DNA from: Candidatus Eisenbacteria bacterium
GTDB lineage: Bacteria; Eisenbacteria; RBG-16-71-46; JAFGJU01
Direction of reading: 5' to 3'
DNA: 64,000 bases
Assembly (NCBI GenBank): GCA_026388185.1
Contig: JAPLKG010000003.1
Location: 1-64,000, forward strand
Shown: in pieces, positions 5,502 to 30,565 of the stretch
Numbering within the stretch: position 1 is the stretch's first letter
Layout of the letters: each line of letters begins with the position of its first letter
Position numbers and translations under genes: made by a program
Notes under the pieces: generated by a model
What the model was told of the DNA's origin: nothing
Database searches by the model: none
What the model saw: only the letters and a program-made list of their open reading frames with translations

Positions 5502-6023
5502 TTATTCGTCTTTGACTGCCTTAGCAATGGCCGCCAAACTCAATCCGCCCAGAACACCAAGGAACGAAAGCACCGTGATGCATTGAGCTAACGCCACCCA
5601 GTTGTTGCGTGGCCCGAAGGAAGATGCCACAGTAGTTGTTTCGACGCTCGACTTACCTTCGATCGTTCGCGTTACACTGCGAAACTGAGTCGAGTCGCAC
5701 GGACACGTTGCCGCCGGATGATGCGGCAACATGCTGACGGCGGGGAACATAGAAATGGCAAACCATCCAAGGATCAAAACGGTCACGGCTACAATAATAA
5801 CCGGATATACGCGAAAAAACCAAATCGGGTTGAAGCTCGGCCGCCGCTTTCGGAACTCAGGTTTATCGTTGGCGGGAATTTTCTCTAGATCTTCCTCGAA
5901 CGTAGCTCGGCGTTGCACGAAGCTCCAGTGGTCCAATTTGAGCAATAGCCAGGGAAGGCCGTATGCTAGGATTGCCACCCACATCAGGCCAATCCACCCA
6001 ACAAGGTTTATGCATCTAACCAT
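5502..6023 (-). CDS. Unknown small membrane protein of the signalling operon
   Basis: 173 residues, not recognised. Three hydrophobic segments are visible: residues 8-28 (LVGWIGLMWVAILAYGLPWL), about 70-92 (VYPVIIVAVTVLILGWFAI) and about 146-168 (ALAQCITVLSFLGVLGGLS). Between the first two is a charged cytosolic-looking loop; between the last two is a probable extracytoplasmic loop with a Cys-Pro-Cys pair. Start has a strong AGGAGG. It sits between the 604-residue protein, which also ends in membrane helices, and the sigma-54 activator, so a membrane complex with its neighbour is plausible. Confidence 0.7.
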   Translation of the reverse strand: MVRCINLVGWIGLMWVAILAYGLPWLLLKLDHWSFVQRRATFEEDLEKIPANDKPEFRKRRPSFNPIWFFRVYPVIIVAVTVLILGWFAISMFPAVSMLPHHPAATCPCDSTQFRSVTRTIEGKSSVETTTVASSFGPRNNWVALAQCITVLSFLGVLGGLSLAAIAKAVKDE

Positions 6024-6061
6024 TGTTTATTCCTCCTGCTTTGCGCGCCTCATGTCCCGGT

Positions 6062-7876: not shown

Positions 7877-7893
7877 TCTCTATACGTCTTCTG

Positions 7894-8820: not shown

Positions 8821-11800
8821 CGCGCTAGTCCACCCTTGGCTGTCGTCAGCGCCTTAACCAAGTGGTACTTGGATATGTCGTCGATCAGATTGGCCTTAAT
8901 GACCGAGAAATCGAGAAATGGCCATTCCTTCTGCACATGCTTGATGAAAGGACCGCGCCCGGAGGTCACAACAACGTGTCTACCGGTCTCATAACCTCCC
9001 AGATACCACTTCGGCTCGGATGCCCGGGGAGCGATCCATTCATCTACTATCCCCTGGTGAATAACAATGATGTCGAATTCTCTGGCCTTTTCTTCCTGAG
9101 TAAGACTATTGAGCACTGCCCAGCCCCTTCTCCGCAGAGAAGCTGACTGGTATTCCTGCAGTGCCGAGTCACGTACGGCGTTCTCGACCGGTTTTGAAAC
9201 AAACAACGGACCGCCGGAACCATCAAAATCAATGCTCAAGGGAATGTAGATCCCAAGGTTCTTGCGAAAATGCTCCATCCTGTCATTGTCGATCTTGCCG
9301 GCGTCAATGAAACTCTCAGCAACTCGCTCATCAATAACCAGAACTTTGGCAAGAGCCGTCTCAAGCAGCGACAAGATCAGATAGTCTTTCAAGAATGGGT
9401 CTTTGGGAGGTGAGCTCAGTAACGCAAACAACTTGAGCGCCTTCTCGCTGTCCCCGGTCAGGCTATGATGGATGGCCAGATGTTCCATGCTGAAACCTTC
9501 GTTTTTGAATACACTACTTAATACTTCATGATTGTCATAAACGACAAGAGTCTCATCATTCCCTCGGCAGACATGCTCGGCAATAGAGTTGACCTGTCCG
9601 CCTGCCGAGCAGTATGCAAGCTTCTTCAGCAGTTTGGACTCGTCATCAGTCAGCACAACGTCGAGATGCACCAAGTCCTCCAATTGAGTCATCCCTTGCC
9701 AGCGATTCGCGATTGATTCCCGGGCACTCCCGTCGAAGGAAATGACAATGTGATACTTTCTCTCGGGAAGGTCACTCCTCTCTTGTCTTCCCGCTCGCCA
9801 AGTCTTAAACCAGTCCTTGTAGCTTGATAGGATGAAGCCCTTCCAGTCTTCCTCCAATACCTGTGCTTTCGTGAACTGCTCCGGGACATCATATCCATCA
9901 AGAACCCGGTAAGGCCAGAACCATTGAGGCCATGCCTTGCTCTCCTGGTTCTTTGCCATTTTGTCACTGAGTATGGTCAGAGCATAGCATTGGTTGGAAG
10001 ACGCCAGGCTGCCTTGAGAGTCAGCCTTATGGATGCCCAATTTCGCGGGAACAGCCCTTACCCTGGGGTCCACAATCAGCAGATTCTTGGGCATCTCCAG
10101 GTAGAACTTGTACGTAAGCCGATCCTTTCTATCTTCATCCGCCCAAATGTAGTACCGCGTCTCCGCGTCCTCACGTACATACAAGGAATCCGCAGATGAC
10201 CCTGCTAAGAGTCTTGCACATTCTTTCATCTCCACTATTCCCATGTTCTCGTAGTTGGGCGTCCCTGTCGTCTCGTCAATCACTGGTTTTCGTATCATAT
10301 CGTTGATCTTTGCAGCGAGCGCTTTGCCTCCACGCTCTATGTTTGGACTTAGATTGTCGAAAATCTCAACCCCCCAGCCTCCCTTTTCCTCGTCCAAAGT
10401 GCAGTTGATGAAAACTCTTAGATCTTCTTCTTTCTCTCCGTATTTCGCAGAATTCCGCATCACGTTCTCCAATATAGTGTAGAAAGCGTGACATCCGGTC
10501 CTTCCTCGAGGGATACCGACGAGAAAGTCCTCAACAGGAGCTTCATCTAACCCAATGGGCTGCTTCTCGCTATAGTACTTGTACCAAGCTATCGGCTCGC
10601 TCCTCCCGTCATTGATTGTCCTTGATGCTAGTTGCCCATTCATGACAAAGTGAATGTTGCCACACGAATACCCGTGACTTCTGACAAGCCAGTCGAGCAG
10701 CGGAACGTTCTGCAAGAATCCGTTGAGTAGCTCACCATAGAACCAGACGCTCTCCGTGGTTCCAGCCCACCCTGCAGTAACTCCCGCAATAAAGTCCATC
10801 CTCTCCTGAAGATAGCGGCTGAACAACTTCATCGAGCTACCGTATGAAGAGTCACTCATGTTCACCCCGGCCAAAACGTGACTACCGATGTTATGCGACA
10901 TGTTGCGGGCCATGATGGCGGCGACAGCGGAACGTAGCGATTGCTCCAGAACCCTCTGCTTGTCGATCATGACCTGCGGTATGGCGAAAACACTGCTCAC
11001 CATATGCTGAAGTAGCCTGTCGACGGGCGCGTCGAGTCGTTCGCGTAACACAAGAAAAACCCCTCCAATTGGCGTGCCCGTGAAGATAAGGCAGGGGTAC
11101 GTAACTAGCCATTTCCAATCTTCGGGGGCAACGAGGTCGAAAACCAACAGTACCCTGAGGAAGCGTTTCACTTCGCCCTCGGTTCGTTCTATCCGGAGAT
11201 TGCACGTGTCTTTTAGCTTCGTCTTGAATTCGGTGCAGAAAGCCGAGACTTGAGAGACCATTTCCTCCTCAATAGGAGAGAGGTACCATTCCATGACAGA
11301 ATCTATCGACTCCTTTTCACCAAGAACTCGATCACGGGCTTCATATCGGGGCCGGTGTTTGTTCATCCAGTCTGCTATCTCAGAGTAGACTTCGGGCAGC
11401 TCCAGTTGGCACACAACGGAAGCCTCGGCAGGGGGTAAACAAAGTTCTGGTGGTATTACATTGCGATTTCTGGCCAGAGCAATGATTTTTCTATTCCATG
11501 GATCGGTCAGAAAAAGCTGGGTGACTGTGTGAACACGATCGTTGCCGGGCCTTAATAGCCAATTCCTCACAACTCTGCCAAAGAAGATTCTGTCTCCAGG
11601 TTTGTAATAGTCACTTTGGAGAAACTGCGTCGCACAGTGTGACTCAGTGAGAGGGTCCCAGAAATTAACAGAGCCCCACATCATGTCTGGTTTGGCCTTA
11701 TCTCTTGAACACACATTGAGCATTCTTATGATGGGAGCAAATATCCAGTACAGAACGGGGCAGGGCATCGACATGTCGAGTCGAGATGTCTCCGATTCCT

Positions 11801-13148
11801 CCAGATTTAGGAGCCCCTTCAGGACGGCAGAAATAAGTTCACGGTTTTCGAGGAACTCGCGGATTTTTCTTTCCCTTATCGCATGCTGAAAGGTGCTGCC
11901 CGAGAAGAAGGCCTTACTTCTGGCAAATGCCGCACTAGACAACGAGGTCAGAAACTCCAGGTCTTCGCATAGAAAACGCTTCGCTGCGCCGAGGGAGCGC
12001 TTTTCGTATTCCTCCACACTAGCGGCTGGGAAGCGCGTCCTGATTCGCCCCCTGAGCCTCGACTCAGCCAACTCGCTCTCCATTGATAGTGGAACATCCT
12101 TTGCGGGGAAAACGCAATCCCTGCTGCCACAAAAGTAAGCATTCGCCACGCACGGACAGAGGGGCACTTGCGCCTTGCTGCATGCTTCGACAACGGGTTG
12201 AAGCAGTTCTTCTTGCAGTTCCCTCTTGAGAACCTGCATCCTGAGTCCATCACTTCTCTGCCGCGGCTCACCTTTCTCGTTGGCCGTGAAAAAGGTGGAG
12301 TACTCACTAGCTACACCGTCATTCCAGTACCTCAACTTGTACTTAACATCGTCGTCAAACGTCATCACGTTGCTGATCACCATCATTTCGTCGCTAACGT
12401 CTGAAGAGGACTTCGCGAAGATTTCTGCGTACCTTCCTACAGCTTCCCGGATGTCCTCGACTGTCTGTCCTGGCAACTCATCTCTTATTCTCGGAATGAT
12501 CGGATCGAGTCGTAATCTAACGGGAACGTGCAACGATACCAGTTCGGCAATGGCCGAGAATCGCTCGGACGCTGGAGGTGCCTCGCTATGGAAGATGCCC
12601 TCCGCCGCTGGGCCAGCGGACATTGATGGAATGGTCACTTCAACTACAAGCGGAGTCTTTTGTGCGACCGCGGCGTATTCAGGGTCAAGAAAGATCTGGG
12701 GGTTCTGTGTGATGACCACCAGCGGGAAGCCATGGTGGGCCAGAGTCTGCAGTACCGACAGGGCATATTTGTGGTCCGTCTCAAGAGGCTGAAATGGATC
12801 TGTTGAACATGAGACCATCACTGGGAGTTTGGGCAGGCCCAGACCTGTTGCGGTCTCGATATCCTTTTTGAGATACTTGGCGATGTCTCGACTGAAAACC
12901 CTTGGCTCGTGGGGATGATTGCAGACATAGCAAAACCTGCACTGAAAAGCACAGCCCCGGTACACGTTGACTCGCAGACGAGCCGGACAGCCGACGCCAA
13001 ACATGTGAAAGGCATCAAGAACACGGAGATTTGCTTTTGTGTACCCGGCCATGATTCGAGCCGCATCGCCGATACTGCCGGGTACTGCAGATCTCTCAGC
13101 TGCTCCGCCAGTGCAGTTTTCATCGAGTGAAGGACCGTTTTCTAACAT
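8817..13148 (-). CDS. SPL-type radical SAM domain fused to a histidine-kinase-like module
   Basis: A 1443-residue fusion. Residues about 40-345 are a radical SAM domain of the spore-photoproduct-lyase/COG1533 type: NVYRGC and then C66-x3-C70-x2-C73, plus a second cysteine group (LCPC 331-334, FCGSRDC 340-346) that may hold another cluster. Residues 450-740 are a probable sensor/linker. Residues 747-761 resemble an H-box (ARNMSHNIGSHVLAG; candidate His752 or His757), followed by an HATPase with N-box TILENVMRNSAKYG (891-904), VEIFDN (927-932) and a glycine-rich NMGIVEMKECARLLAG. The last 350 residues are alpha/beta and unassigned. First gene of a minus-strand operon that ends in a sigma-54 activator. 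It may couple radical chemistry or redox/DNA sensing to phosphorylation. The fusion is seen directly; the substrate is unknown. Confidence 0.85.
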   Translation of the reverse strand: MLENGPSLDENCTGGAAERSAVPGSIGDAARIMAGYTKANLRVLDAFHMFGVGCPARLRVNVYRGCAFQCRFCYVCNHPHEPRVFSRDIAKYLKKDIETATGLGLPKLPVMVSCSTDPFQPLETDHKYALSVLQTLAHHGFPLVVITQNPQIFLDPEYAAVAQKTPLVVEVTIPSMSAGPAAEGIFHSEAPPASERFSAIAELVSLHVPVRLRLDPIIPRIRDELPGQTVEDIREAVGRYAEIFAKSSSDVSDEMMVISNVMTFDDDVKYKLRYWNDGVASEYSTFFTANEKGEPRQRSDGLRMQVLKRELQEELLQPVVEACSKAQVPLCPCVANAYFCGSRDCVFPAKDVPLSMESELAESRLRGRIRTRFPAASVEEYEKRSLGAAKRFLCEDLEFLTSLSSAAFARSKAFFSGSTFQHAIRERKIREFLENRELISAVLKGLLNLEESETSRLDMSMPCPVLYWIFAPIIRMLNVCSRDKAKPDMMWGSVNFWDPLTESHCATQFLQSDYYKPGDRIFFGRVVRNWLLRPGNDRVHTVTQLFLTDPWNRKIIALARNRNVIPPELCLPPAEASVVCQLELPEVYSEIADWMNKHRPRYEARDRVLGEKESIDSVMEWYLSPIEEEMVSQVSAFCTEFKTKLKDTCNLRIERTEGEVKRFLRVLLVFDLVAPEDWKWLVTYPCLIFTGTPIGGVFLVLRERLDAPVDRLLQHMVSSVFAIPQVMIDKQRVLEQSLRSAVAAIMARNMSHNIGSHVLAGVNMSDSSYGSSMKLFSRYLQERMDFIAGVTAGWAGTTESVWFYGELLNGFLQNVPLLDWLVRSHGYSCGNIHFVMNGQLASRTINDGRSEPIAWYKYYSEKQPIGLDEAPVEDFLVGIPRGRTGCHAFYTILENVMRNSAKYGEKEEDLRVFINCTLDEEKGGWGVEIFDNLSPNIERGGKALAAKINDMIRKPVIDETTGTPNYENMGIVEMKECARLLAGSSADSLYVREDAETRYYIWADEDRKDRLTYKFYLEMPKNLLIVDPRVRAVPAKLGIHKADSQGSLASSNQCYALTILSDKMAKNQESKAWPQWFWPYRVLDGYDVPEQFTKAQVLEEDWKGFILSSYKDWFKTWRAGRQERSDLPERKYHIVISFDGSARESIANRWQGMTQLEDLVHLDVVLTDDESKLLKKLAYCSAGGQVNSIAEHVCRGNDETLVVYDNHEVLSSVFKNEGFSMEHLAIHHSLTGDSEKALKLFALLSSPPKDPFLKDYLILSLLETALAKVLVIDERVAESFIDAGKIDNDRMEHFRKNLGIYIPLSIDFDGSGGPLFVSKPVENAVRDSALQEYQSASLRRRGWAVLNSLTQEEKAREFDIIVIHQGIVDEWIAPRASEPKWYLGGYETGRHVVVTSGRGPFIKHVQKEWPFLDFSVIKANLIDDISKYHLVKALTTAKGGLAR

Positions 13149-13545
13149 TCCATTCCTTCCGTACCCGTGTCCATTTGCAGACTGGATCGGGCTGTCTGTT
13201 GACCTCTCTCAGAGCGGGATAGGATGCTAACCGCTTGTGGCTAGCTGACTTCAGTTTCTCGTTTGCAAAGCTGAAGTACTGATGCATCAAAGGTTCAGCG
13301 GGAGCACGCTAAGGTTCCTTACTGCGTCGGCCAGAAGCAGCTCGGTCGGAGAGACAGTACTTCGTGTTTTCCTTCCTCCGAAATCGGAGACCTGCCCGTC
13401 CTGCAAAACGTCGTCCCTCTTCTCTTCTGAAGGCTGTAGGAGGATACGATGTGAAGTTCTCTTGTTTCGTTCGCCTTGGCAGAACGTTAGTCATGGTCAT
13501 GAAGTCCCCCGGAGCACAACGGCCTTTGGAGCACTTCGCTTCCGA
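13149..13545 (-). other. Gene-free gap between livK and the radical SAM/kinase operon
   Basis: About 400 bases between the livK stop and the start of the radical SAM/kinase gene. No convincing protein, RNA or terminator is seen; frames here have no recognisable content. The gap probably carries the promoter of the kinase operon, but I could not pick a credible -35/-10 or -24/-12 pair. Read-through from the transporter operon is possible because no strong terminator hairpin is visible. Confidence 0.4.
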
Positions 13546-14679
13546 TTATCGCACATTGGCAGGCGAGAGCTTTCCTTTGTCGAGTTTCACGATGCTGAGC
13601 GGGAACTTGATGTTCCTATCGCTTCTCACACTGAGTGTCCCCATGGCGCCAGGATAGTCCTTCAACTCCATGAGCCCGTCTTTGATCTCTTGGGCACTAT
13701 ACCCCTTGTTCTTCATAGCTGTCGCAACCATCATCATTCCGTCATACGCGAAGCCGGCGAAGACATTGGGATCACTATTGTACATCTTGTGGAATCTCTC
13801 AATGAAGGCTCTTGCGGCGGGTTCCTGGGAGTCCAAGCTGAAAGCAGGACTGGTGAAATACGCCCCTTCAAGGCTACCAGCAGAGAGCGCAATGAAAGCA
13901 GGAATTGACATGGCCATAGGGGCGGCCAAGATACCCTTGTAACCTAGTTCGCGTAACTGCTTCGCGAGAAGCACGCCTGCCTTGGTATACCCAATAATGT
14001 AGATTCCCTCCGGGTTGTAACTCTTGGCTTTCGCCGCAATGTTCTTGAAGTCCCCCTGATCCAACGTATAGCTATCTGACCAGACTATGTTCCCACCGTA
14101 GGTCTGAAGGGTACTCTTCAGAGCCTCGAAGGAGCCGATACCAAAATCATCATTGCAGTATAGAGCGACGATGTTCTTCAGCTTCAATGCGTGCATCATG
14201 AAATCACCCATTATGAGCGCTTCATCATCGCTGCCTGGATGATCTCGTACGACCCACTCGCTTTGTTTCGTAATCCCGGGGTAGGAGACGGCTATGAGCA
14301 TTGTCGGAATCCGTGACTTCAAGGTAAGAGGCACGACAGCATTCGCCACGGAACTTAGGGCCGAGATGATCACTGGGACTTTGTCAACGTCTGCGAGTTT
14401 CCCGAAAGCGGTCACGCCATCCTTCGCCTGACCCTTACTGTCCTCGAATGAAACCTCTATCTTCCGACCACTCACACCACCATTTTCGTTGATCTCTGCT
14501 TGTGCGGCCTCGATGCCCTTCCTTTGCCACTCACCGATGTCGGAAGTCGGACCTGTTAAGGGCAATATGGCACCAACCTTTATGGTGCCGGACTTTCCAG
14601 TGCAGTTCAAGCCAATCACCGCGCTGCAAAAAACGAGGAGAGTCGCACCGACCAGATACCACAGTTTCTTGTTCTTCAC
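13546..14679 (-). CDS. livK: Branched-chain amino-acid type ABC transporter substrate-binding protein
   Basis: 377-residue periplasmic binding protein of the Leu/Ile/Val (Peripla_BP_6) family. It starts with a basic N-terminus and hydrophobic signal segment (YLVGATLLVFCSAVIG) and a cysteine at residue 26 in a poor lipobox (GLNC), so lipidation is possible but atypical. The mature part opens IKVGAILPLTGPTSDIGEWQ, typical of the family. Last gene of the REC-livHMGF-livK operon; its start overlaps the livF stop by four bases. The ligand may be an amino acid, amide or urea-like compound; the sequence alone does not decide. Confidence 0.9.
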   Translation of the reverse strand: MKNKKLWYLVGATLLVFCSAVIGLNCTGKSGTIKVGAILPLTGPTSDIGEWQRKGIEAAQAEINENGGVSGRKIEVSFEDSKGQAKDGVTAFGKLADVDKVPVIISALSSVANAVVPLTLKSRIPTMLIAVSYPGITKQSEWVVRDHPGSDDEALIMGDFMMHALKLKNIVALYCNDDFGIGSFEALKSTLQTYGGNIVWSDSYTLDQGDFKNIAAKAKSYNPEGIYIIGYTKAGVLLAKQLRELGYKGILAAPMAMSIPAFIALSAGSLEGAYFTSPAFSLDSQEPAARAFIERFHKMYNSDPNVFAGFAYDGMMMVATAMKNKGYSAQEIKDGLMELKDYPGAMGTLSVRSDRNIKFPLSIVKLDKGKLSPANVR

Positions 14680-15518
14680 GTCCCACTCCTTTTCTTGAGA
14701 AGAGACTCCCCAGAGTCAGCAAACTGTTTGTTCGCTGATCCTAGGAAGAGCTGTTCCAGTTTCCCATTCGTAAGCCACTCGCTGGGTCTCTTCGTTTCCA
14801 TGGCTAACCGACCGCTGGCAAGAGCAACCGCATGTCCTACCACAGTGAGCGCTTCTAGCACGTTCTGCTCGACCATGATAATCGCAGTGCCCCAATCTTT
14901 GGCGACTATTGTCACTTTGTCAAGCATTTCGTGCACAAGTTTCGGGGAAAGCCCGGCCGAAGGTTCGTCCAGAAGCATTAACACCGGTCGGCGCACGAGC
15001 ACCATGCTAAGCGCCAAAGCCTGTCGCTCCCCACCGGACAGAACGCCGGCCCGTTTCCCCAACATCTCTCTCAGGTTCGGAAAGAGTTTCAAAACCTGCT
15101 CCACATTCTTTTTCAGTTCAGCCTCGTTCAATGATATGCCGGCCGTGCGCAGATTCTCGAGCACGGTCAAACTGGGGAAGACCCGGCCGCCTTGCATGAA
15201 ATAGCCGATTCCGACCCGCGCGCGCTGGTGGGCCGAGAACCCGGTGATATCAGTGCCATTAAATGATACTCGGCCGGTTGAGGGCTCGAGGAATCCGGCG
15301 ATGACTTTCAGTAGAGTGGATTTGCCCGCACCGTTGGGGCCGATGAGGGCAAGGAGGTCACCGCGGCTGACTTCAAGTGTGATGCCGCGAAGGATCTCCT
15401 TCTTGCCATAGCCGGCGCGGATGGACTCGATCCGCAGAATCTCCTGGGAGGAGGGACGTGGGGCGAAAGGGACGTCCGGCGTCACGGAATGTGGATTGTC
15501 CGTTGCGGGTTGTTTCAT
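14676..15518 (-). CDS. livF: ABC transporter ATPase, LivF type
   Basis: 280-residue ATP-binding subunit. Walker A GPNGAGKST, signature LSGGERQALAL and Walker B VLMLLDEPSAGLSP followed by the switch histidine region (IIMVEQNV) are all present. The IGYFMQGGRVFPSLTVLENL segment is typical of LivF, which lacks the long LivG insertion. The N-terminus is about 30 residues longer than usual (MKQPATDNPHSVTPDVPF), so the true start might lie later. It pairs with LivG on LivH/LivM to energise uptake. Confidence 0.92.
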   Translation of the reverse strand: MKQPATDNPHSVTPDVPFAPRPSSQEILRIESIRAGYGKKEILRGITLEVSRGDLLALIGPNGAGKSTLLKVIAGFLEPSTGRVSFNGTDITGFSAHQRARVGIGYFMQGGRVFPSLTVLENLRTAGISLNEAELKKNVEQVLKLFPNLREMLGKRAGVLSGGERQALALSMVLVRRPVLMLLDEPSAGLSPKLVHEMLDKVTIVAKDWGTAIIMVEQNVLEALTVVGHAVALASGRLAMETKRPSEWLTNGKLEQLFLGSANKQFADSGESLLKKRSGT

Positions 15519-20385: not shown

Positions 20386-21219
20386 CTAAGCTCTGCTCAG
20401 GATCCTGCCCACTATCACCGAGACAATCGCTGCAACAAAGGTTCCAATCAGAGTGGCGCTCCATGCTTGGAGTGAAGGAGTTTGATGCAACGCTATTGCT
20501 GTGAAGTAATCAATCAGCGGACCTGCCAGAAATACTGCTGCCAAGACTCGTCTGAAAGAAGAACGTGCCCTCCTCAGGACCAGACCCAGGAGAGTAGCGG
20601 ACATTAGTATTGCAAGCAATATTCGCGGGTCAAAACTGGCACTGCCTGCTACCACTGCAGGCGTAGTTAGGATCAAAGCCTGCGTAAGAGAGGCTGCAAT
20701 TGCTCTGTCGGTAATGAAATAGACAATCGGCGCAACAGCTCTCATAAGACCAATGACCAGAACTGTACCCCAAAACGTCTGCCACAGGGATGTAAACAGC
20801 CCGCTGCCTAACAGGCAGCCCGCTCCTCCGCCCAACACAAAGACAGCAATCAAGAGCATTTTGAGATGACTGACCCGGGTTCTGGGACGTGGGGCTTCTG
20901 CGTGCCACAAGACGGGGCGACGCGCGGTGGCATGCTGCATACCGGGTGCCGCGAGCGGAGATACCCAGACTCTCTGGATTGGTCTTCCACTTGGCACCTG
21001 ACGGCTGCGCCGGAGAACCGGTGTATTCGAAGGCGTAATCGTTATGACTTTTGCGGTCGGATGAGCAGGGCAATGATGATTCAGGTGATAGTTTCTACTA
21101 CATACGGAGCATATGTGATATCTTTCATTTTCTTTGATTGCCCTGCCACATGCGGGACATACCCTGAAGTTCACGTCAAGCCTATCTGGCTCTAACCCAA
21201 CTTCCCCACGCAGTCCCAT
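20386..21219 (-). CDS. RING-like zinc finger protein with several membrane helices (RING-2)
   Basis: About 277 residues from the ATG at 21219 (a start six codons earlier is possible). Near the N-terminus is a treble-clef, RING/PHD-like motif: CPAC, twelve residues, CSVC, then H-x2-H-x-C-x2-H (YHICSVCSRNYHLNHHCPAH). A proline/arginine-rich linker follows, then about five to seven hydrophobic segments (MLLIAVFVLGGGAGCLLGSG; LTQALILTTPAVVAGSAS; RILLAILMSATLLGLVL; WSATLIGTFVAAIVSVIVG). The finger is close to that of RING-1 encoded at 21987. It is a candidate membrane-bound E3-like ligase, last in the ubiquitin-like operon. RING identity is inferred from spacing and context; a plain zinc ribbon is the alternative. 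Confidence 0.75.
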   Translation of the reverse strand: MGLRGEVGLEPDRLDVNFRVCPACGRAIKENERYHICSVCSRNYHLNHHCPAHPTAKVITITPSNTPVLRRSRQVPSGRPIQRVWVSPLAAPGMQHATARRPVLWHAEAPRPRTRVSHLKMLLIAVFVLGGGAGCLLGSGLFTSLWQTFWGTVLVIGLMRAVAPIVYFITDRAIAASLTQALILTTPAVVAGSASFDPRILLAILMSATLLGLVLRRARSSFRRVLAAVFLAGPLIDYFTAIALHQTPSLQAWSATLIGTFVAAIVSVIVGRILSRA

Positions 21220-21340
21220 TCTTACGTACCACTGCACGAGTCAAGTGATTGAACGGGATACCGAGGGACTGGATTGAAAAGCCACTTATGAGTTCTTCTG
21301 TTACATCAAGTGGGACCATGGAGTTCCATAACGCATCCTA
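21182..21340 (-). pseudogene. Left-over C-terminus of a second E1 gene
   Basis: Directly after the stop of the second E2, in the same frame, the sequence reads VPLDVTEELISGF, then SIQSLGIPFNHLTRAVV, and ends in a stop. This matches the very end of the intact E1 (VPDKYTEELEDGYSLRSLHI and PPNHLIRVLF), with about 40% identity and the same closing (WIASR against WVRAR). No JAMM or E1 catalytic part is present between. It is the scar of a duplicated E2-JAMM-E1-RING cassette that lost its middle. It overlaps the start of the RING-2 gene in another frame. Confidence 0.75.
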
Positions 21341-21901
21341 ACCACGCGTTTGGTCAATCAAAGATCGAAGACGAACCAGGTCGACTGGTGGAACATATTT
21401 GGAAATCCTGTTTGCGTTTGCCGTCCACCATTGCATTGCTGCGCGGTTGGCAGGAGAAAGAGCATTGATCTTCAGCAAACTTTCCATATCTTGGTTGTAC
21501 TGAAGATATTCAACCACGCCGCGCACCCAGTCCACCACACACAAGTCGGGTTGAGGATAACCCAGTCCCCAACATATTGTTCCATCAGGCCAGATTTGGG
21601 GATGAAAGGGTACAGGCGCCATGAACCTCATGTCGGGAACCGCAACCCACGGATAGCCCGATGGAACGCGGACAGTGATCACGAAAACATCGGCCGTGTG
21701 ATTCCGGTTAGAATCCGGATTGCTCACCAAGCTTCTTATCCCCTTAATGATCAGCTTGAACTGTCGCAGGTCCAGACTTTGCCCCTCTATTCTTAGGCGC
21801 AAAGGGATATCAGATTCCGCATCCAATATGGTCTTCAGCCTTCGTAATCGCACCATCTCGTTGTTGAGCCGATCGTCCAAAAGTGGTGTCCTCCCAGCCA
21901 T
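21338..21901 (-). CDS. E2 ubiquitin-conjugating-like enzyme, second copy (E2-b)
   Basis: 187 residues with a UBC-type core: GYPWVAVPDMRFMAPVPFHP, then Q-I-W-P-D-G and the catalytic Cys110 in GTICWG, followed by the C-terminal helices (VDWVRGVVEYLQYNQ and ANRAAMQWW). HPxIxxDG-x-[IL]C is the E2 active-site signature. It is a clear paralogue of E2-a (25340-25885) over its whole length, including the closing DQTRG/DRSRG. It should take the ubiquitin-like protein from the E1 as a thioester. It pairs with RING-2 downstream. Confidence 0.9.
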   Translation of the reverse strand: MAGRTPLLDDRLNNEMVRLRRLKTILDAESDIPLRLRIEGQSLDLRQFKLIIKGIRSLVSNPDSNRNHTADVFVITVRVPSGYPWVAVPDMRFMAPVPFHPQIWPDGTICWGLGYPQPDLCVVDWVRGVVEYLQYNQDMESLLKINALSPANRAAMQWWTANANRISKYVPPVDLVRLRSLIDQTRG

Positions 21902-21986
21902 TACGCGAACTCGTCAGTGCACTGCCCCTTGGATAGAAATAAGGGTATGGCACAAAGCGCCAACGCGTCGCATCCAAATCAAGATT

Positions 21987-23000
21987 TCACGAAATTTGTC
22001 TCACAGAAATATAATCTATCTCTACCTTCATTTTCCCGTCAAGAACGAATCCAAGCTGATGGCCAAAGAGCGGTTTAGAGGGTGCGTTGATTACATGCTG
22101 GTCGTTTACAAAGAAGTGCAACTGTCTTCCGACCTTCTTGACAGTTAGTTTGTTCGTTGAATTCTCTCTGTTGATGCTTTCCGTGATGATGCGGCCTGTA
22201 ATTAGGCTCTGCGTGCCTTTCTTCATCTCAGCGTACGAAAAGCAGCCGTTACCGGCAATCTTAGCTTCATAGTAATTGCCCCCGTCTTTGCCACCCCAAG
22301 TGATTCCGAATCCGCGCTCGTCCGTACCCGAGATCTTTGTGAATACTGCTTCTATTACGAAATTTTTGTGGAGGTCGAAGCCCTTGATGGAGGTGGCGTG
22401 CATGACACCTTCGTCCTCCAAACGGTATTCGAAAACATATTTGCCTTTGGCAATTTTTGCAGTATGGGATTCGGTCTTGCAGATTGGCCAAAGATCCACA
22501 TCTTTATCAAAGTGATCCTCGAAAAGAAGCAAGTAGTCCGCAGTAACATCAGACCGCTCCTCTTGAGCTGTATTATTCACGATTCTTATGAGTCTTGGAG
22601 CGAAAACCACAACAGATATAGCGATGACAATTGTCCATATAATGATTCCCCAATGAGTGCGGCTTCCTTCCTGCGCACCTGGGAGGGTTAGCGTAGCTTC
22701 GTCTTCTGTAGACAACGTTCCCGGAGATGGAAGCTGTCTCAAGCCAGCTTGTCCATATCGAGAACGTCCCTGGCGGGGCGATCGACCTTGTGTGCGCGGA
22801 ACCGCCAGCCGAGAGGTTGATCTGCCGCGCACAATGCTGGCAAGGTTGGAAGCTCCGGGAGTGACGACATACATCCAAGCGCCAGTATGCTGGGGGCACG
22901 CATGGTTGAGGTGATAGTTTCTTCTACAAATGGGGCAGATATGATACCGATCGTATTCCTTAATTGCCCCACCGCATGCGGGGCATATCCTGGCTCCCAC
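21987..23000 (-). CDS. Membrane RING-like protein with a lectin-like outer domain (RING-1)
   Basis: 337 residues. Residues 6-38 form a RING/PHD-like treble clef (C6, C9, C22, C25, H30, H33, C35, H38). A basic, disordered linker (to about 112) is followed by one membrane helix (116-140, HWGIIIWTIVIAISVVVFAP). Residues 160-337 form a jelly-roll domain like LamG/DUF1080 (FEDHFDKDVDLWPI, GFGITWGGKDGGNYYEAKI, QLHFFVNDQHV). The expected topology puts the finger in the cytoplasm and the lectin-like domain outside. A GTG start with GAGG upstream is the only option, because E1 stops nine bases before it in the same frame. It is an attractive E3-like receptor; ligase activity is inferred from operon and finger only. 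Confidence 0.8.
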   Translation of the reverse strand: MGARICPACGGAIKEYDRYHICPICRRNYHLNHACPQHTGAWMYVVTPGASNLASIVRGRSTSRLAVPRTQGRSPRQGRSRYGQAGLRQLPSPGTLSTEDEATLTLPGAQEGSRTHWGIIIWTIVIAISVVVFAPRLIRIVNNTAQEERSDVTADYLLLFEDHFDKDVDLWPICKTESHTAKIAKGKYVFEYRLEDEGVMHATSIKGFDLHKNFVIEAVFTKISGTDERGFGITWGGKDGGNYYEAKIAGNGCFSYAEMKKGTQSLITGRIITESINRENSTNKLTVKKVGRQLHFFVNDQHVINAPSKPLFGHQLGFVLDGKMKVEIDYISVRQIS

Positions 23001-23006
23001 ACTGCA

Positions 23007-24131
23007 TCACCTCGAGGCAATCCAAGCCTCTCCCACGGTATTTCCTTTACTAAACAAGACTCGAATCAAATGATTTGGAGGGATATGCAGAGATCTGAGA
23101 GAATATCCGTCTTCAAGTTCTTCTGTATACTTATCTGGAACGACTGCCAATGCCCCACAGGCAGGACAGCAAGATCTCAGGAACTTCCCAAGCAGGCATG
23201 GCTGGATTGTGTGAGAGCCACCACATCCACGACAAACGACGGAGTACACTATCTGTTTGTCGTGTCTAACTTCTACCTCAGAGCATCCGAGGGCGGCTCG
23301 AAGCCTATTCTTGATCGAAAGAACATCATCGTCTAGGAGAGACTCTAGAAGGACTTTCGACTTGTCTGGCGGAGGAACATGAGCAGGGCAATTTTCTTTT
23401 CTTGGCACTTCCCAGGTCAGGAATGCCCCGTTTTCTCCATCGAACCAGAAGAACACACTACTCCGGGCGGAAGGACCTGAGTGCTTCAGATGAAGGATCT
23501 TAATGCACTCTTGAGCTGCAATGCCTCCCGCTATTGCGCCCGACGTAATGACCATGGGGATCTTGGGCTCATCTGGAAGCATTCCTATCTTTGAGCAGCT
23601 GTGTCTTTCCCATAGTTGCTGATACTCCCTTTTGGTCCAGCTGCATTCAATACATGCTCCGGATGGTGTGGCAACGAATACACTGCTGACCAGACCACCT
23701 ATCCCCGTATCAACTAGAGGCGTACCGTGTAGCCGACAGTACCTATTCACCCATAGTCGTGCCTCCAGATTATCTACAGTCAAAACGACACAGTCAAAGG
23801 AACTATATTCGAGGCTACCGAAATCATAGACGACATCGCGGTTCCAGCCTCTGGTTGTGATCCCTGGGGCAATCTCCTTGGCACGCCTGGCGGCTGTCTC
23901 CGATTTGGACTTGCCAATGTCCTCGGCCCGAAACAAAACACATCTGTTCAGATTCACTTCCTCAACCACATCGCTGTCCAGAACGCTGATTTCTCCTACA
24001 CCTGTAAGAGCAAGATTCTTGATCACCTCGTTGCCTGTAGTTCCCGCACCAACAACGAGGACACGACCTCCAGAGACGGCTTCCTGACGCCATCCTTTTA
24101 TCATCTTCTGTCTTGTATACCTATTCGACAT
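23007..24131 (-). CDS. E1-like ubiquitin-activating enzyme (ThiF/MoeB fold) with zinc tail
   Basis: 374 residues from the ATG at 24131, which overlaps the JAMM gene by eleven bases. It opens NRYTRQKMIKGWRQ, then GAGTTGNE nucleotide loop, LDSD, VNLNR, and VLTVDN, all E1/ThiF adenylation motifs. Cysteines in ACIECSW and HSCSKIG are candidates for the catalytic thiol. A C-terminal domain carries a zinc-ribbon-like pair (CRGC and CPAC) and ends in a tail also seen as a relic at 21182. It would adenylate the C-terminal Gly of the ubiquitin-like protein and pass it to the E2s. A start six codons upstream is possible. Confidence 0.92.
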   Translation of the reverse strand: MSNRYTRQKMIKGWRQEAVSGGRVLVVGAGTTGNEVIKNLALTGVGEISVLDSDVVEEVNLNRCVLFRAEDIGKSKSETAARRAKEIAPGITTRGWNRDVVYDFGSLEYSSFDCVVLTVDNLEARLWVNRYCRLHGTPLVDTGIGGLVSSVFVATPSGACIECSWTKREYQQLWERHSCSKIGMLPDEPKIPMVITSGAIAGGIAAQECIKILHLKHSGPSARSSVFFWFDGENGAFLTWEVPRKENCPAHVPPPDKSKVLLESLLDDDVLSIKNRLRAALGCSEVEVRHDKQIVYSVVCRGCGGSHTIQPCLLGKFLRSCCPACGALAVVPDKYTEELEDGYSLRSLHIPPNHLIRVLFSKGNTVGEAWIASR

Positions 24132-25386
24132 GAGCCTGATGTTCCTCACTGACTATGACTTGATACTGATGTGTATCCAGAATGGCTCTTTCTCGGTGGG
24201 ACCAAACTCTAAACCTTAGCTCTTGTGTTGCCAATGCGTTAACGGACGGCGAAGCAATCAGAAAGTAGTCACCGCAATATTCCTCAAGAGCACCCAATTC
24301 GGGTGTGGGCGAGTCAAAAAACCATCGCTTGCGGCTTTTGGTGAGAGCAGCGGTCGTTTTGGCATTGCAATATACCCCGATCATCTGTAGACCTTTTCCG
24401 GGGTGTCCCGACGGTAAGGACGCCTCAGAGTGCCGAGACAGTGTGTTCGAAGACTGCGCGGCAAATCCTCTAATGTATTTTCGGTACTCTTCAATCCTTT
24501 CCAACCCTAAGGCCAGGGAATCCACTAGATTTATTAGGCTGCAGCCCGCAAGATGATCAGTATACCCAAAGAGCAGCCCACCACTTTGAGAGGAATGCAT
24601 TTCCTGCCACAGCTTCTTGTTGACACGCACAGGAACAATCACCATTGGCATAGGGAAATTGAGTCCGGTCGGCCCGATTTTAAGCAGGTTATGCAACCGC
24701 GAGCTCGCTTGCGCTATCTCCTGTCCGAGGTCTCTTCCCAGCCGTCTCGCAAGTGCCTCGTCGATTTCGGGGCGTTTTTCCACAAGAATGACATTACCCC
24801 TTGCTACTCTCACCTGTGTGCCTTCGTTGTTCCACCCAAAGAAACCAATCCATTCTAAGTCTGACTCGAAGCCTTGCGACCTGACTCGACTCGGATCGAC
24901 TACAGCTGCGACCTGATATTGCTCGGGATGATAGTCAGAGAAGTTCTTTGTGTCGGTCCCGGAGAAGAATATGCCCAGTTTCGGATGCGAATGATAATAC
25001 CCTACAAGGATCGTGCCCTCTCTTAGCCGAACCGCCTCAACGTCTCTGAAGCTCTCGGGAACCATTCTCACGTGGGTTGGAGTGGAGACGTAGAGAGCAC
25101 GAATCGCTCTTTCGACGTAGGTAATCCGTACCCCACTATCGGCATCCATGGCAGGAAAACCCAAGAGATACCCACCGACCTCATGGTGCATTTCTCCTGA
25201 GGCATGATAATACATTTCTCGCAACGCACCTTTTTGGATGAGAAGCAGCGGTAGGTCTTCACGTGGGAGCAAGTCGGAGGCTCGTACGAATCGTCGCTCA
25301 TCATATCTTGTGACTTTGCCAACCCTCACAGCCTGATCATCATCCTCGCGACCTGTCAATCCAAGCACGTAAGCGAGCCATATCAA
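24121..25386 (-). CDS. JAMM deubiquitinase-like protein, tandem MPN+/MPN-
   Basis: Up to 421 residues. The first MPN domain has a perfect zinc-protease signature: E69 (HHEVGG), H132-S-H134, seven residues, S142, two residues, D145. A second, similar domain (about 248-382) starts alike (MVIVPVRVNKKLWQEM, SQSGGLLFG) but has Y-C-N-A where HSHP should be, so it looks catalytically dead. This layout recalls eukaryotic Rpn11/Rpn8 or CSN5/CSN6 pairs, here in one chain. Likely role: removing or trimming the ubiquitin-like protein. The frame opens inside the E2-a gene; no ATG is available near the start (TTG at 25386, GTG later), so the true start is uncertain. Confidence 0.9.
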   Translation of the reverse strand: MIWLAYVLGLTGREDDDQAVRVGKVTRYDERRFVRASDLLPREDLPLLLIQKGALREMYYHASGEMHHEVGGYLLGFPAMDADSGVRITYVERAIRALYVSTPTHVRMVPESFRDVEAVRLREGTILVGYYHSHPKLGIFFSGTDTKNFSDYHPEQYQVAAVVDPSRVRSQGFESDLEWIGFFGWNNEGTQVRVARGNVILVEKRPEIDEALARRLGRDLGQEIAQASSRLHNLLKIGPTGLNFPMPMVIVPVRVNKKLWQEMHSSQSGGLLFGYTDHLAGCSLINLVDSLALGLERIEEYRKYIRGFAAQSSNTLSRHSEASLPSGHPGKGLQMIGVYCNAKTTAALTKSRKRWFFDSPTPELGALEEYCGDYFLIASPSVNALATQELRFRVWSHRERAILDTHQYQVIVSEEHQAHVE

Positions 25387-25885
25387 TAGGCCTTATGTAA
25401 CGTGAAAGGTTTCCGCGATTTCTCTTCCACCACTCCATCGCTCCAGGATTCGCAGGAGAGTTGGCGTCTATCTTCCACATACTACCTTCTTCTTGATTGT
25501 ATTGAAGATACTCAATGATGCCGCGGATCCAGTCCGCAAGAGCCAGATCCGGCTGAGGGGTGCCACCCGACCCCCAACACAAACGCCCGTCGGGCCAAAT
25601 GTGTGGGTGAAAAGGAATTGGGGAGCGAAATCTCAAGCCAGGCACAGCGGACCATGGGTACCCTGATGCAATCTCAGCCGCGACCAAAAATGTGTCACCA
25701 ATGGCTGAAGAGCCGAGAGATGGATTGCCGATGAGACTCTGTATTCCCTTGATGGTCAGTTCGAATCGGCTGAAGTCTAAGCTCTTCCGCTCAACTTCAA
25801 ATCGAAGGGGAAGGATGGAGTCTGCATCCAAGATACTTTTGATCTTCAATAGGTGTCGAATTTCTGTATTAAACCTCTCATCCAT
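25340..25885 (-). CDS. E2 ubiquitin-conjugating-like enzyme, first copy (E2-a)
   Basis: 181 residues. UBC-type core: GYPWSAVPGLRFRSPIPFHP (75-94), H-I-W-P-D-G and catalytic Cys103 in RLCWG, then helices with ADWIRGIIEYLQYNQ and ANPGAMEWW. The N-terminal 45 residues give the first helix and strand (FNTEIRHLLKIKSIL, PLRFEVERKS). It follows the ubiquitin-like gene by 71 bases and overlaps the JAMM gene. It should carry the ubiquitin-like protein as a thioester on Cys103. No Asn-type oxyanion residue of canonical E2s is obvious; the HPHIW motif replaces HPN. Confidence 0.92.
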   Translation of the reverse strand: MDERFNTEIRHLLKIKSILDADSILPLRFEVERKSLDFSRFELTIKGIQSLIGNPSLGSSAIGDTFLVAAEIASGYPWSAVPGLRFRSPIPFHPHIWPDGRLCWGSGGTPQPDLALADWIRGIIEYLQYNQEEGSMWKIDANSPANPGAMEWWKRNRGNLSRYIRPIDMARLRAWIDRSRG

Positions 25886-25956
25886 AAGCAGCCCCTTTGA
25901 ACAATCAAGGTTATTCTCTGTCCGCGGATCTATTCGGACAACTACTCATCACAGGG

Positions 25957-26205
25957 CTAGCCCCCAACCTCCATTCTGGCTAGGGTTAGCTTGTCTCCGC
26001 TTTGCACCAATTTGTCCAGCGTTGCATCCCCACTGATTGGCTTACCATCTGAACCCAGCAATTTGTATGAACCCTCTGCTGGCAACCCCAGTTGAGGGGC
26101 CACCAACGTACATACCTGCTGCGCATTGTCACCCGGAAATATTTCCACTTCCGCAGAAGCTGTACCGCCAGCCCTAACTATGGTTACCTTCTTGCCCTCT
26201 GCCAT
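25957..26205 (-). CDS. Ubiquitin-like modifier ending in Gly-Gly
   Basis: 82 residues with the beta-grasp pattern: strands KKVTIVRAGG and SAEVEIFPGD, helix NAQQVCTLVAPQLGL, strand SYKLLGSDGKPI, turn and last strand DKLTLARMEVGG. The final two codons are Gly-Gly followed at once by TAG, so the protein is made ready for E1 activation with no propeptide to trim. No lysine-rich or poly-ubiquitin repeat; one unit only. AGGAGG lies five bases before the ATG. First gene of the cascade operon. Confidence 0.9.
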   Translation of the reverse strand: MAEGKKVTIVRAGGTASAEVEIFPGDNAQQVCTLVAPQLGLPAEGSYKLLGSDGKPISGDATLDKLVQSGDKLTLARMEVGG

Positions 26206-26768: not shown

Positions 26769-29177
26769 TCACTTCGGTGGGTTTGTAATGACCTTCACCG
26801 GCTTTTTGGCATCCTCATGTGGCCACGGCTCAAGCTCTTGAATGTGCCTGCCAAGTTCGGGATAGGAATCCAATCTCGGCACATTTCGCATGGTTACTTG
26901 GCCGAGGGAGATATCGTGAAATCGAGACGCCAAAATTTCTATGCTGCGGATCCCATCAAATGGCATGGCATTGTAGAATACCCTGAGTACATTTTGGTCG
27001 ATGCTCGAGATTGGTCCGAAAACTCGATTGAGGAAATTAACGCCGTGGTAAACCAGTTCCGTTCGTCGGCGCTTGCTTTCAGGGTCGCTCCGAACCATCC
27101 TTTTCATCAGTACCTTTCGTCTTTCTTCGTCCTGCTCTGCATGAAGCTTTTCCCTACGGTCACCCCCAAAGAAATCCAACTCAATAATTGGTCCATTTAT
27201 CCTGGACAAAAAGTCGCGCCCCTTCGATTCGACTCTCAGGTGGTTGAGAGGTTTAGTAGAAGCAAATACCCAGACGCAGGGTTCGATACGGTATGTGGTC
27301 CCTTCCGATGCGAAAGAGCCGTCCCATATCGGGCCCAAAAGAAGACCCATAGCTGTGTGGCTCTCAATCTGGGCATCTATTTCATCCACAAAAACGAGAA
27401 CGCGGGCCCGTGTACGATTCTGAACAGACATTATCTGTTTAAGCGAGTTCATTAGATCCTGATTAGAGGCCATCTGGGCGACCGAGAAACTGAGATGTTG
27501 AAAATCAAAATGCTGGGCTAGACACTTCGCCAGAGTGCTTTTCCCCCATCCCGGTTCCGCGAGAAGAAGGCAATTAAAGGGGTACCGTGGATCTCGTTCA
27601 TTTCCATACGCCTGCAGCCGGGTTATCAATTTGTTTATCTCAGATCGCTTATCTCCACCGGGACAGATGTAATCCTTGAGCGTTCCGTGAGCGCGCCAGA
27701 GATGAATCTGCTTTTCCCCGCCTACCGTAACAACCCCTTGGCCAATCGATGAACGATTCCACTCGTGCCAGCTCGCCAGATAAGTGAGCCGGTGAGACAG
27801 TCTCTGGCGGGGCCCGACCACCGCTGGAGGCCAGGGTGGCCTGTAGATCGCTTGGTCGAAGGGTCCAGTTAGATTAGAGGGCTTCTTTTCCAACCAAGCC
27901 TTCGTACAGCTGTCAGTCCAAAGGTACGCGTTTCGGAGCGCCCAAGAGCACGCACTGCTCATAGAGTTCCGCAGAGGGACAAACATCTGGTCCCAGTATA
28001 CAAGCGAAGAAAAGAAAACTGTGGAGCGTCCAACGCAGATAGGTTTCTTTTCACCTGGCGCGCTGGCGATGTTGACGAGATAAGCGTCATCTTTCTCGCG
28101 GCTCCGATTAGAGTGCCTACCCCGGACCCTTTTTGTGCCTGTAGTGCTCGTCGCAGCAATCACTGTATCATCCTCGAACAAGAGGGCAGCATTCTCCGGC
28201 TTTACTCGAACAGAGTGGATTGTCTTAGTGTGGAGATACTTCTTCAGCCCAAGGAGATCACCCAGGACTTCCAAAGCTGCATGCCCTAGGACGGTCGGTC
28301 CGTGGCGCCAGACGCGTACCCCGTATGTATACTCCAGCAACTGTTCATCGGTAAACGTCAGCCGCGGTTTCTTCCTCGCTTTCTTCAGTTCGTCCATCCA
28401 CGTTGCGGACTCTAGCTTGCTCCGAATGTACCATTTAGCCTTCGGAAAGGCCCTATGGAGCCGTTTGACCAGCTCATTGTCGATCACTCCATAGCCGTGA
28501 TCGACCGCAACAATCGCGTCAACCTCAGTTTTGGGAATGGATTTCTTGATCTCACCCACGATGCCGTAGTTCTTGTACTGATTGTCGAGATCCAGTTTCC
28601 AATCGAAACGATATTGAAGACGAGGTTGATCACTGCCAAACCCTTCATAAAGACGGACCAAGTGGTTGGAAGACGTATTTGTTGCGGCTTTGGGGCAGTT
28701 TGTCTTAACTAGATTGAACATCGACCGCTGGTAGCAGCACTCAGTTTGAGTCCTGAGATGCGGACACCACCTCTTGGCCTTGCTATTCCAGTGCGGAGTC
28801 GTGAGACCGGATAAACGGTACGGTGTGAGCCCTATGCTCACATCTTTCTTGTCACACAGCAGACACATAAGGAGATTGCTATCACTTGGGTTCCATGCCG
28901 TAAGCAAAAGCAGTTCGCATTTCTCCACCATTGAAGGAACCATGGATTTCCCCGCTGAGACAGTGCGATGTTGAAGACCCGGACCCCGTAGGGTGCGCCA
29001 AACACTAGCTGCTCCGCAAAAACTTATGATCCGGCAATCGGCGTTTGGCAGATTGCTAATGTAGTGTTCCTTGCCAACGTTGTAGCTGTGGTAGATGTCT
29101 CCGCGCGACATCAGCCAGTTCTCATCGATGAAGGAATCACCAACAATGAGCACAACGCGCTTCTGGTTGGATGGCAT
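26769..29177 (-). CDS. PfkB-like domain fused to an AAA+ ATPase
   Basis: About 802 residues from the ATG at 29177 (AGGAGG eight bases upstream). Residues 1-320 look like a ribokinase/PfkB-type fold close to the HldE/RfaE sugar-kinase domain (VVLIVGDSFIDENWL at 8-22, AIVAVDHGYGVIDNELVKRL at 221-240). The middle is unassigned. Residues 505-700 are AAA+: Walker A EPGWGKST (541-548), Walker B VLVFVDEID (593-601), a sensor-1-like FASTKP (638-643), and an arginine-rich C-part. The PfkB assignment is weaker than AAA+. It follows the TPR/CFI-box gene by 63 bases. Together with the ubiquitin-like genes this may supply an unfoldase or switch; that role is inference. Confidence 0.75.
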   Translation of the reverse strand: MPSNQKRVVLIVGDSFIDENWLMSRGDIYHSYNVGKEHYISNLPNADCRIISFCGAASVWRTLRGPGLQHRTVSAGKSMVPSMVEKCELLLLTAWNPSDSNLLMCLLCDKKDVSIGLTPYRLSGLTTPHWNSKAKRWCPHLRTQTECCYQRSMFNLVKTNCPKAATNTSSNHLVRLYEGFGSDQPRLQYRFDWKLDLDNQYKNYGIVGEIKKSIPKTEVDAIVAVDHGYGVIDNELVKRLHRAFPKAKWYIRSKLESATWMDELKKARKKPRLTFTDEQLLEYTYGVRVWRHGPTVLGHAALEVLGDLLGLKKYLHTKTIHSVRVKPENAALLFEDDTVIAATSTTGTKRVRGRHSNRSREKDDAYLVNIASAPGEKKPICVGRSTVFFSSLVYWDQMFVPLRNSMSSACSWALRNAYLWTDSCTKAWLEKKPSNLTGPFDQAIYRPPWPPAVVGPRQRLSHRLTYLASWHEWNRSSIGQGVVTVGGEKQIHLWRAHGTLKDYICPGGDKRSEINKLITRLQAYGNERDPRYPFNCLLLAEPGWGKSTLAKCLAQHFDFQHLSFSVAQMASNQDLMNSLKQIMSVQNRTRARVLVFVDEIDAQIESHTAMGLLLGPIWDGSFASEGTTYRIEPCVWVFASTKPLNHLRVESKGRDFLSRINGPIIELDFFGGDRREKLHAEQDEERRKVLMKRMVRSDPESKRRRTELVYHGVNFLNRVFGPISSIDQNVLRVFYNAMPFDGIRSIEILASRFHDISLGQVTMRNVPRLDSYPELGRHIQELEPWPHEDAKKPVKVITNPPK

Positions 29178-29240
29178 GACTTCCTCCTGAATAATTACGA
29201 GCCCTCTATCTACACCAGCGGGAGGCGTCTTGCGCACGCA

Positions 29241-30542
29241 TCAAAGATCAGACCTTTTCCTTGCCCACCGCACAATGGGTCCGAGGACCAGTCTGGCGAC
29301 AAACTTGGTAACCGTACTGCTGGAAACAAACCCTGCCAAAGATGGGGAAACAAAATAATAGAGTCTGACTGCGAATGCACCGAGGCGGGAGTGTAATAAC
29401 ACTTCATCCCGAAATCTACTTAGTGTCGCCACCTCTGATGCCAGCGGAGAGTCAAACGCAGCAGTTGCGATGAAACAGCGCGAACCTACACCTTCCACCT
29501 TGTACAGGTCCATACCCGGGGGCTCGAACTTCAGCACTATGAGTATTGTTGTTTCCCCAGCCAATCTTCTGGCCTCATCGAGAACTGCCAGGTCATCCGG
29601 AGCGAAGGAGCCGACTAGCTTAGTTCGGAAGTTGCCTTTGTACATGGCTGCTGGTTTTCCTTCTCTCAGAATCGTGACGCGATCCTTCCTGTATTGGCTC
29701 TCGAGTTCGAGTATGCCTTCCCCAACTTCCTTGATTCTGGAGTTTCTGGCAACCTCTGTCTCCGCTGTGCCAATCGATTCCAACAGTCGTACGGTATTCC
29801 TGCGCGACACTTCATTCGTGTCGTGACTGAGACAAGTTTTGAGATCCTGAACAGCCTTGTCTTTCTCCCCCATGAGCAGCCACAGGTAGCCTCGATTGAA
29901 GTAAGTCGGAGGGTGATCAGGAGCCAGAGCAATGGCCCTCTCAAATGCGTCTAGTGCGAGCTCGTAGTACTCTCCAGCTTTCGCCTCCTGCCCGGATTTG
30001 GTAAGCTCTGCCCCCATCGTCTTGTACACGTTTCCTAGACTGTTGAGTGGATGCGGCATCTTTGGCGATGAGGACACTGCCCGTCTTGCCCACTCCAATG
30101 CCAAATCGTACTTCCCTTTGTGGGTGTATATGATGGCGAGGGAATTCATCGCATCAGCAGCGTCGGGCGATTCTTCAACACCATATTCGAGAGCCCAAGC
30201 CGCGAGATCCTCCTCACCGAGTCTTGCAAGCTGCATTCCCATATGCACCAACATGCGAGCAAGAGGCCAGTCGTCAAAATCGGCGGGATGCTTGCACTTC
30301 GCTCTTTGCAGAATAGAAGTGGCGCGACTAACAAGCTCAAGCCCCGGAATTCGGCGAAGAACGTCAAGTTTATCCTCGTCGCTCGGAAATTCCTTGAGGA
30401 TCTTGCTCCGAAAGCGGGCTTTCTCCGCTTTCGAGAGGTTTGTGAAGTGCTGCACTTCCTTCTTCAGTGCGCGTTCCATATCAATCAGCTGAATTGTCGA
30501 CAGACCTTGCGTTTGTTGGTGAATGCTGTCGATTTCGTCCAT
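29241..30542 (-). CDS. TPR protein with C-terminal CFI-box domain
   Basis: 433 residues from the ATG at 30542 (GGAGG upstream; an ATG 18 bases earlier is weaker). Residues about 75-255 are tetratricopeptide repeats (WALEYGVEESPDAADAMNSL, YDLALEWARRAVSSSPKMPH, ALDAFERAIALAPDHPPTYF). The C-terminal 75 residues begin CFIATAAFDSPLASEV and continue FRDEVLL, YYFVSPSLAGF, the CFI-box-CTERM domain found at the end of many bacterial proteins of unknown function. The tail includes a hydrophobic stretch and a basic end. It heads a two-gene operon with the PfkB/AAA+ fusion. Probably a scaffold or sensor. Confidence 0.82.
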   Translation of the reverse strand: MDEIDSIHQQTQGLSTIQLIDMERALKKEVQHFTNLSKAEKARFRSKILKEFPSDEDKLDVLRRIPGLELVSRATSILQRAKCKHPADFDDWPLARMLVHMGMQLARLGEEDLAAWALEYGVEESPDAADAMNSLAIIYTHKGKYDLALEWARRAVSSSPKMPHPLNSLGNVYKTMGAELTKSGQEAKAGEYYELALDAFERAIALAPDHPPTYFNRGYLWLLMGEKDKAVQDLKTCLSHDTNEVSRRNTVRLLESIGTAETEVARNSRIKEVGEGILELESQYRKDRVTILREGKPAAMYKGNFRTKLVGSFAPDDLAVLDEARRLAGETTILIVLKFEPPGMDLYKVEGVGSRCFIATAAFDSPLASEVATLSRFRDEVLLHSRLGAFAVRLYYFVSPSLAGFVSSSTVTKFVARLVLGPIVRWARKRSDL

Positions 30543-30565
30543 CTTGGATCCTCCATTCACGGAAA

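Follow-up and report, generated by a model that had tools for sequence, protein, structure and literature searches.

In 2011, Burroughs, Iyer and Aravind reportedly described an association of prokaryotic RING fingers with E1, E2, JAB and YukD-like ubiquitin-like proteins (Ubls). Clusters of E1, E2, JAB and Ubl genes in bacteria are also on record as operon types 6a-6e (Iyer 2006, PMC1779556). Furthermore, complete bacterial operons are already known, and an archaeal cascade has been reconstituted (PMC5654768). In the literature that we examined, we found no experimental study of the membrane-linked Ubl operon family. The present study describes an operon of this kind in a 64,000-nucleotide stretch of DNA from Candidatus Eisenbacteria bacterium (the window).

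A complete set of ubiquitin-cascade parts

The operon lies at 20386-26205 on the minus strand, and its genes follow the order Ubl, E2a, JAB, E1, RINGa, E2b and RINGb. All seven are tightly packed, with short gaps or overlaps, and all seven frames are intact. The E1, E2, Ubl and JAB genes are adjacent, as in the bacterial RING-type Ubl class, and the same operon carries RING-like finger proteins, two transmembrane (TM) proteins with eight conserved Cys/His residues. The locus encodes a complete set of ubiquitin-cascade parts. Scans for promoters and terminators gave results near chance.

The Ubl (25957-26205, minus strand) has 82 residues and ends in MEVGG, the C-terminus being exactly Gly-Gly, whereas most relatives carry Ala-Gly, either exact or with a short tail. 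Alignment with 58 relatives' Ubls gave an AlphaFold2 model with a pLDDT of 88 and the beta-grasp order. In Foldseek, this model retrieved Caldiarchaeum ubiquitin first (E 3e-6, 32% identity), followed by SUMO and ubiquitin, and its VIA Z against ubiquitin-fold chains was about 11. At the sequence level also, the family profile matches Caldiarchaeum ubiquitin and ubiquitin. The window Ubl itself has no YukD match; it can be aligned from end to end with the Ubls of the relatives (E 0.0016).

The E1 (23007-24149, minus strand; 380 residues, probably starting at ATG 24131 rather than at the listed start) consists of a single ThiF-type adenylation domain (E 6e-47) and a C-terminal zinc knuckle. Its nearest solved relatives by sequence are the active domains of human UBA1 (1e-30) and UBA7 (8e-26), with E. 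coli ThiF (2.5e-15) and MoeB (8e-11) behind them. Cys185, the candidate catalytic cysteine, is identical in 75/75 relatives, as are nucleotide-site residues such as D58, D60, R69, K82 and D126. Between 72 and 75 of these 75 also retain the zinc site C166/C169/C254/H257 and a further knuckle, C306/C309/C328/C331.

The two E2s, E2a (25340-25885, minus strand) and E2b (21338-21901, minus strand), are paralogues with 52% identity, and match the E2 profile built from relatives at E 1.2e-26 and E 5e-21, respectively; this family profile in turn matches solved ubiquitin E2s at E 1e-16, which places both proteins in the UBC fold. Their catalytic cysteines are Cys103 and Cys110. Both have kept the upstream His and lost the oxyanion Asn of the HPN motif, which reads HPH in E2a and HPQ in E2b; HPN is present in 71/71 related E2s in which a catalytic Cys was recognised. 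UBE2W is a human E2 with HPH that tags N-terminal amines (PMC4630614, PMC9527308). As a Ser seems to be kept at the downstream Asp/Ser position, this parallel is only a hint at altered chemistry.

The JAB protein (24121-25386, minus strand; its start is probably near GTG 25329 rather than at the listed 25386) matches Prok-JAB (E 2e-12). Its first domain was modelled with an Rpn11/BRCC36-like MPN+ fold, and the Caldiarchaeum JAMM is among the best structural matches of this domain. The JAMM positions E69, H132, H134, S142 and D145 are invariant among 53 sequences. The second half (about residues 210-421, window 24121-24760) has no assigned fold. It carries GG-LLFG and LQMIGVY stretches that are reminiscent of MPN and lack the metal ligands. 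A dead MPN domain, suggested by this by-eye likeness, gained no support from profile comparison or from structure prediction, in which the pLDDT was mostly under 50.

The finger proteins, RINGa (21987-23000, minus strand) and RINGb (20386-21237, minus strand), share finger domains with 69% identity at their N-termini and are unlike outside them. In RINGa, the finger is followed by a basic linker, one predicted TM helix (about residues 114-139) and a C-terminal domain, which matches a C-terminal domain that follows a TM helix in another protein as well as a domain of a glycosidase-like protein. We read these matches as LamG-like, a domain name with no Pfam match behind it. In RINGb, about four TM segments follow the finger. 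The topology, as read from hydropathy, suggests that the finger of RINGa would lie inside and its LamG-like domain outside the membrane. Both window fingers follow the pattern C-x2-C-x12-C-x2-C-x4-H-x2-H-x-C-x2-H with eight putative ligands, a compact form of the relatives' pattern C-x2-C...C-x2-C-x4-H-x2/3-CW...C-x4-C. They lack the Trp/Cys-Trp present in nearly all relatives and the final Cys pair. Specifically, they score 17.1 and 10.6 bits on Prok-RING_1 (PF14446), below its cut-off of 29.1, whereas the relatives' fingers reach 29-50 bits, at or over the cut-off. We therefore term the window fingers RING-like and not Prok-RING_1 members. Matches to the relatives' finger profile are weak (E 0.003 and 0.007), and the profile of the family is as close to PHD fingers as it is to RING fingers.

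An earlier note on this DNA had proposed a seven-gene Ub-like set on the minus strand, and the inventory stands: all seven genes are present with intact catalytic residues in E1, E2 and JAMM. The Gly-Gly Ubl passed the beta-grasp check and the E2s, with both cysteines, the UBC-fold check by their profile matches; the ThiF-type E1 proved to be a single domain with all conserved active-site residues, the JAMM zinc signature is intact at all five positions, and both of the claimed membrane RING-like proteins have predicted TM helices.

Upstream of the operon, also on the minus strand, lie genes for a protein of 822 residues that carries an AAA+ ATPase domain at its C-terminus (26769-29237) and for a TPR protein (29241-30560). 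Since they have no homologue near related E1 loci and are 563 bp distant, we do not count them as operon parts. Elsewhere in the window, three adjacent large genes (6062-13148, minus strand; 604, 308 and 1443 aa) have no Pfam match over cut-off.

Related loci and the doubled E2-finger pair

A scan of genome contigs with an alignment of three E1 sequences (from the window, a related locus L009 and a Crinalium plasmid) yielded 80 loci, chiefly in Planctomycetota and Chloroflexota, the remainder coming from Armatimonadota, WS1, Lentisphaerota, Bacillota, Nitrospirota, Bacteroidota, Myxococcota and Pseudomonadota. Iterated profiles over the neighbouring open reading frames of these E1-similar loci, to which the counts apply, found a Ubl at 67, an E2 at 69, a JAB at 69 and a RING-like finger at 53 of the 80; these counts and those that follow are lower bounds where contigs are truncated. 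E2, JAB and Ubl occur together at 60/80 loci. The earlier note had regarded the full set with two membrane RING-like proteins as rare. This does not hold, since all five parts are present at 44/80 loci and at least one TM finger protein at 45/80; two or more TM finger proteins are found at 8/80, and at 7/80 together with two E2s. Relatives reach the Prok-RING_1, UQ_con, JAB and YukD cut-offs, and at locus L087 the Ubl scores over the YukD cut-off within a Ubl-E2 fusion that also exceeds UQ_con.

Several relatives differ in architecture. At L087 (11169-12026) and in Anaerolineae relatives, a Ubl is fused to the N-terminus of E2, with a separate free Ubl alongside. At L009, an E2-like domain, apparently without Cys, is fused to a JAB domain (6271-7506) and adjoined by a gene for a finger-TM-SH3-like protein (7452-8207) comparable to RINGa, its domains being read by eye. 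In the Thiomargarita locus L065, two large uncharacterised proteins (5986-8592 and 12754-15222) flank E1-Ubl-E2-JAB genes. Among plasmids, the E2 query had no match, and the E1 query led to the Crinalium locus E1-Ubl-E2-JAB. There (L013, plasmid pCRI9333.03, 6995-10472), an E1, two Ubls with EGGY and EVS ends, an E2 and a JAB protein that contains a TM helix were observed.

The window operon is a divergent member of this set. Its E1 sits on a very long branch in the E1 tree, and a genome scan with its two E2s found no relatives. Within its phylum, such E2s occur in 1/47 genomes, the window's own only. Two Cys-bearing E2s are found at 3/14 two-E2 loci (L039, L051 and L062), and in most planctomycete E2 pairs the second E2 lacks the Cys.

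A whole-genome search with the E1 gave a second match at 21185-21322 on the minus strand, between E2b and RINGb (E 9e-5, 43% identity to E1 residues 335-380). This remnant represents the 3' end (46 codons) of a second E1 gene, in a reading frame that differs from that of RINGb. Because the listed start of RINGb (21237) falls within it, RINGb probably starts at GTG 21174, which matches RINGa's own GTG start. The simplest history is a tandem duplication of E2-JAB-E1-RING, after which the extra JAB disappeared along with almost the whole extra E1, leaving the 46-codon scar and the doubled E2 and finger genes.

Possible role at the inner membrane

We consider that the operon belongs to the bacterial E1-E2-Ubl-JAB-RING (Prok-RING_1) class and that its likeliest role is to tag targets at the inner membrane reversibly with the Ubl, with a probability of roughly 0.78. 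We show the parts, folds and catalytic residues by computation; the order of transfers follows from what the families do. E1 would adenylate the Ubl and carry it on Cys185, and E2a or E2b would receive it as a thioester. RINGa and RINGb may then draw E2~Ubl to the inner membrane, where they would steer the Ubl onto substrates, and the LamG-like domain of RINGa could perhaps sense something outside the membrane and so prompt tagging. The JAMM enzyme would take the Ubl off its substrates. Because the encoded Ubl already has Gly-Gly at its end, it does not need the JAMM enzyme for maturation, and a deconjugase role is likelier for that enzyme. Proteasomal fate of the tagged proteins is unlikely, since the genome has no proteasome-family gene in a search whose controls were positive in 10/14 genomes.

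Recruitment to the membrane by the fingers is argued from their TM helices, the occurrence of fingers next to E1 at 53/80 loci and the fact that E2 and finger were copied together; we infer it in this way, along with the E2-finger pairing, the sensing and the substrates. Going by the RINGa TM helix and LamG-like domain, an envelope role seems plausible. Against tagging at the inner membrane weigh the weak finger-profile matches, the missing Cys-Trp and final Cys pair of the fingers, the missing oxyanion Asn of both E2s, a topology taken from hydropathy only and the long E1 branch.

The fingers may be E3s, although their Prok-RING_1 scores stay under the cut-off and the Cys-Trp is missing. Alternatively, they could be zinc-finger membrane adaptors or receptors for conjugates, with E2 alone transferring the Ubl, as in Bil, which has no E3 gene. 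The same low scores, the additional loss of the last Cys pair and a family profile as PHD-like as RING-like speak for such a role; however, fingers accompany E1 at most related loci, and the duplication in the window took in both E2 and finger. We regard this as a real possibility that falls short of even odds.

A role in defence had been suggested in the earlier note, and an anti-phage system comparable to BilABCD can be envisaged, as phage defence is known from other Ubl conjugation operons of bacteria and the distribution within the phylum is patchy. The neighbourhood gives this no support. Its genes are for two-component systems, RND efflux, ABC-F and the transport of branched-chain amino acids; searches of these neighbours gave no hit specific to defence, and there is no sign of a defence island. 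PADLOC found no BilA-C model match, and viral contigs gave no match either. We regard defence as unlikely.

Quite doubtful, too, is a more elaborate scheme in which the E2s and fingers form two dedicated membrane pairs, loss of the HPN Asn shifts the acceptors from lysine to N-terminal amines, hydroxyls or lipids, and inner-membrane targets are tagged under a periplasmic LamG-like sensor.

The partial duplication with its E1 remnant, together with the changed HPN of both E2s, might indicate a decaying or inactive copy. This is improbable, considering that seven frames are intact, that the E1, E2 and JAMM catalytic residues are kept and that both finger copies retain all eight putative ligands. 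Finally, a sulphur-carrier or cofactor pathway of the ThiF/ThiS or MoeB/MoaD type, as the single ThiF domain and the Gly-Gly end could imply, is very improbable, because two Cys-bearing UBC-fold E2s and a JAMM are foreign to the classical thiamine and molybdenum-cofactor routes and the E1 is nearer to UBA1 than to ThiF or MoeB.

Taken as a whole, the family would represent a compact form of the ubiquitin pathway, linked to the membrane and found across many bacterial phyla. The window locus is useful in that two E2-finger pairs share one E1 and one Ubl, with the same catalytic residue changed in both E2s, and offers a minimal system for testing E2-finger pairing and target chemistry.

Comparison with described systems

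BilABCD likewise comprises Ubl, E1, E2 and JAB. In contrast to the window, its BilA has two Ubl domains, its BilD two adenylation domains (one inactive, one active) and its BilB a CEHH motif (PMC11354881). The window Ubl is single, its E1 has one ThiF domain, and no CEHH follows Cys103 or Cys110; these absences, with the PADLOC result, led us to reject BilABCD as its identity. Type II CBASS (Cap2/Cap3) was rejected as well, as E1 and E2 are separate genes and no CD-NTase model matched in the operon and the neighbours tested.

The Iyer types 6a-6e resemble the locus in clustering E1, E2, JAB and Ubl in bacteria. However, most have E1 fused to JAB or E2, or an E2 without the upstream His, whereas the window genes are all separate and the E2 His is kept; we rejected these types as its identity. 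Their inventory contains no RING-like membrane protein, although 6e may have a zinc finger (PMC1779556). The operon of Ca. Caldiarchaeum subterraneum brings together Ub, E1, E2, one or more RING proteins and an Rpn11-like JAMM, as the window does; its RING proteins (srfp) are small, whereas those of the window are transmembrane, and its CsUb is a precursor cut by Rpn11, whereas the window Ubl already ends in GG (PMC5654768, PMC6043591).

The Burroughs 2011 class matches the locus in its parts list and gene adjacency, and many of the relatives found here have membrane-anchored fingers. The window differs from it in fingers that fall below the Prok-RING_1 cut-off, in E2s without the HPN Asn and in a doubled E2-finger pair. 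We judge the locus to be a divergent variant of this class and not a first.
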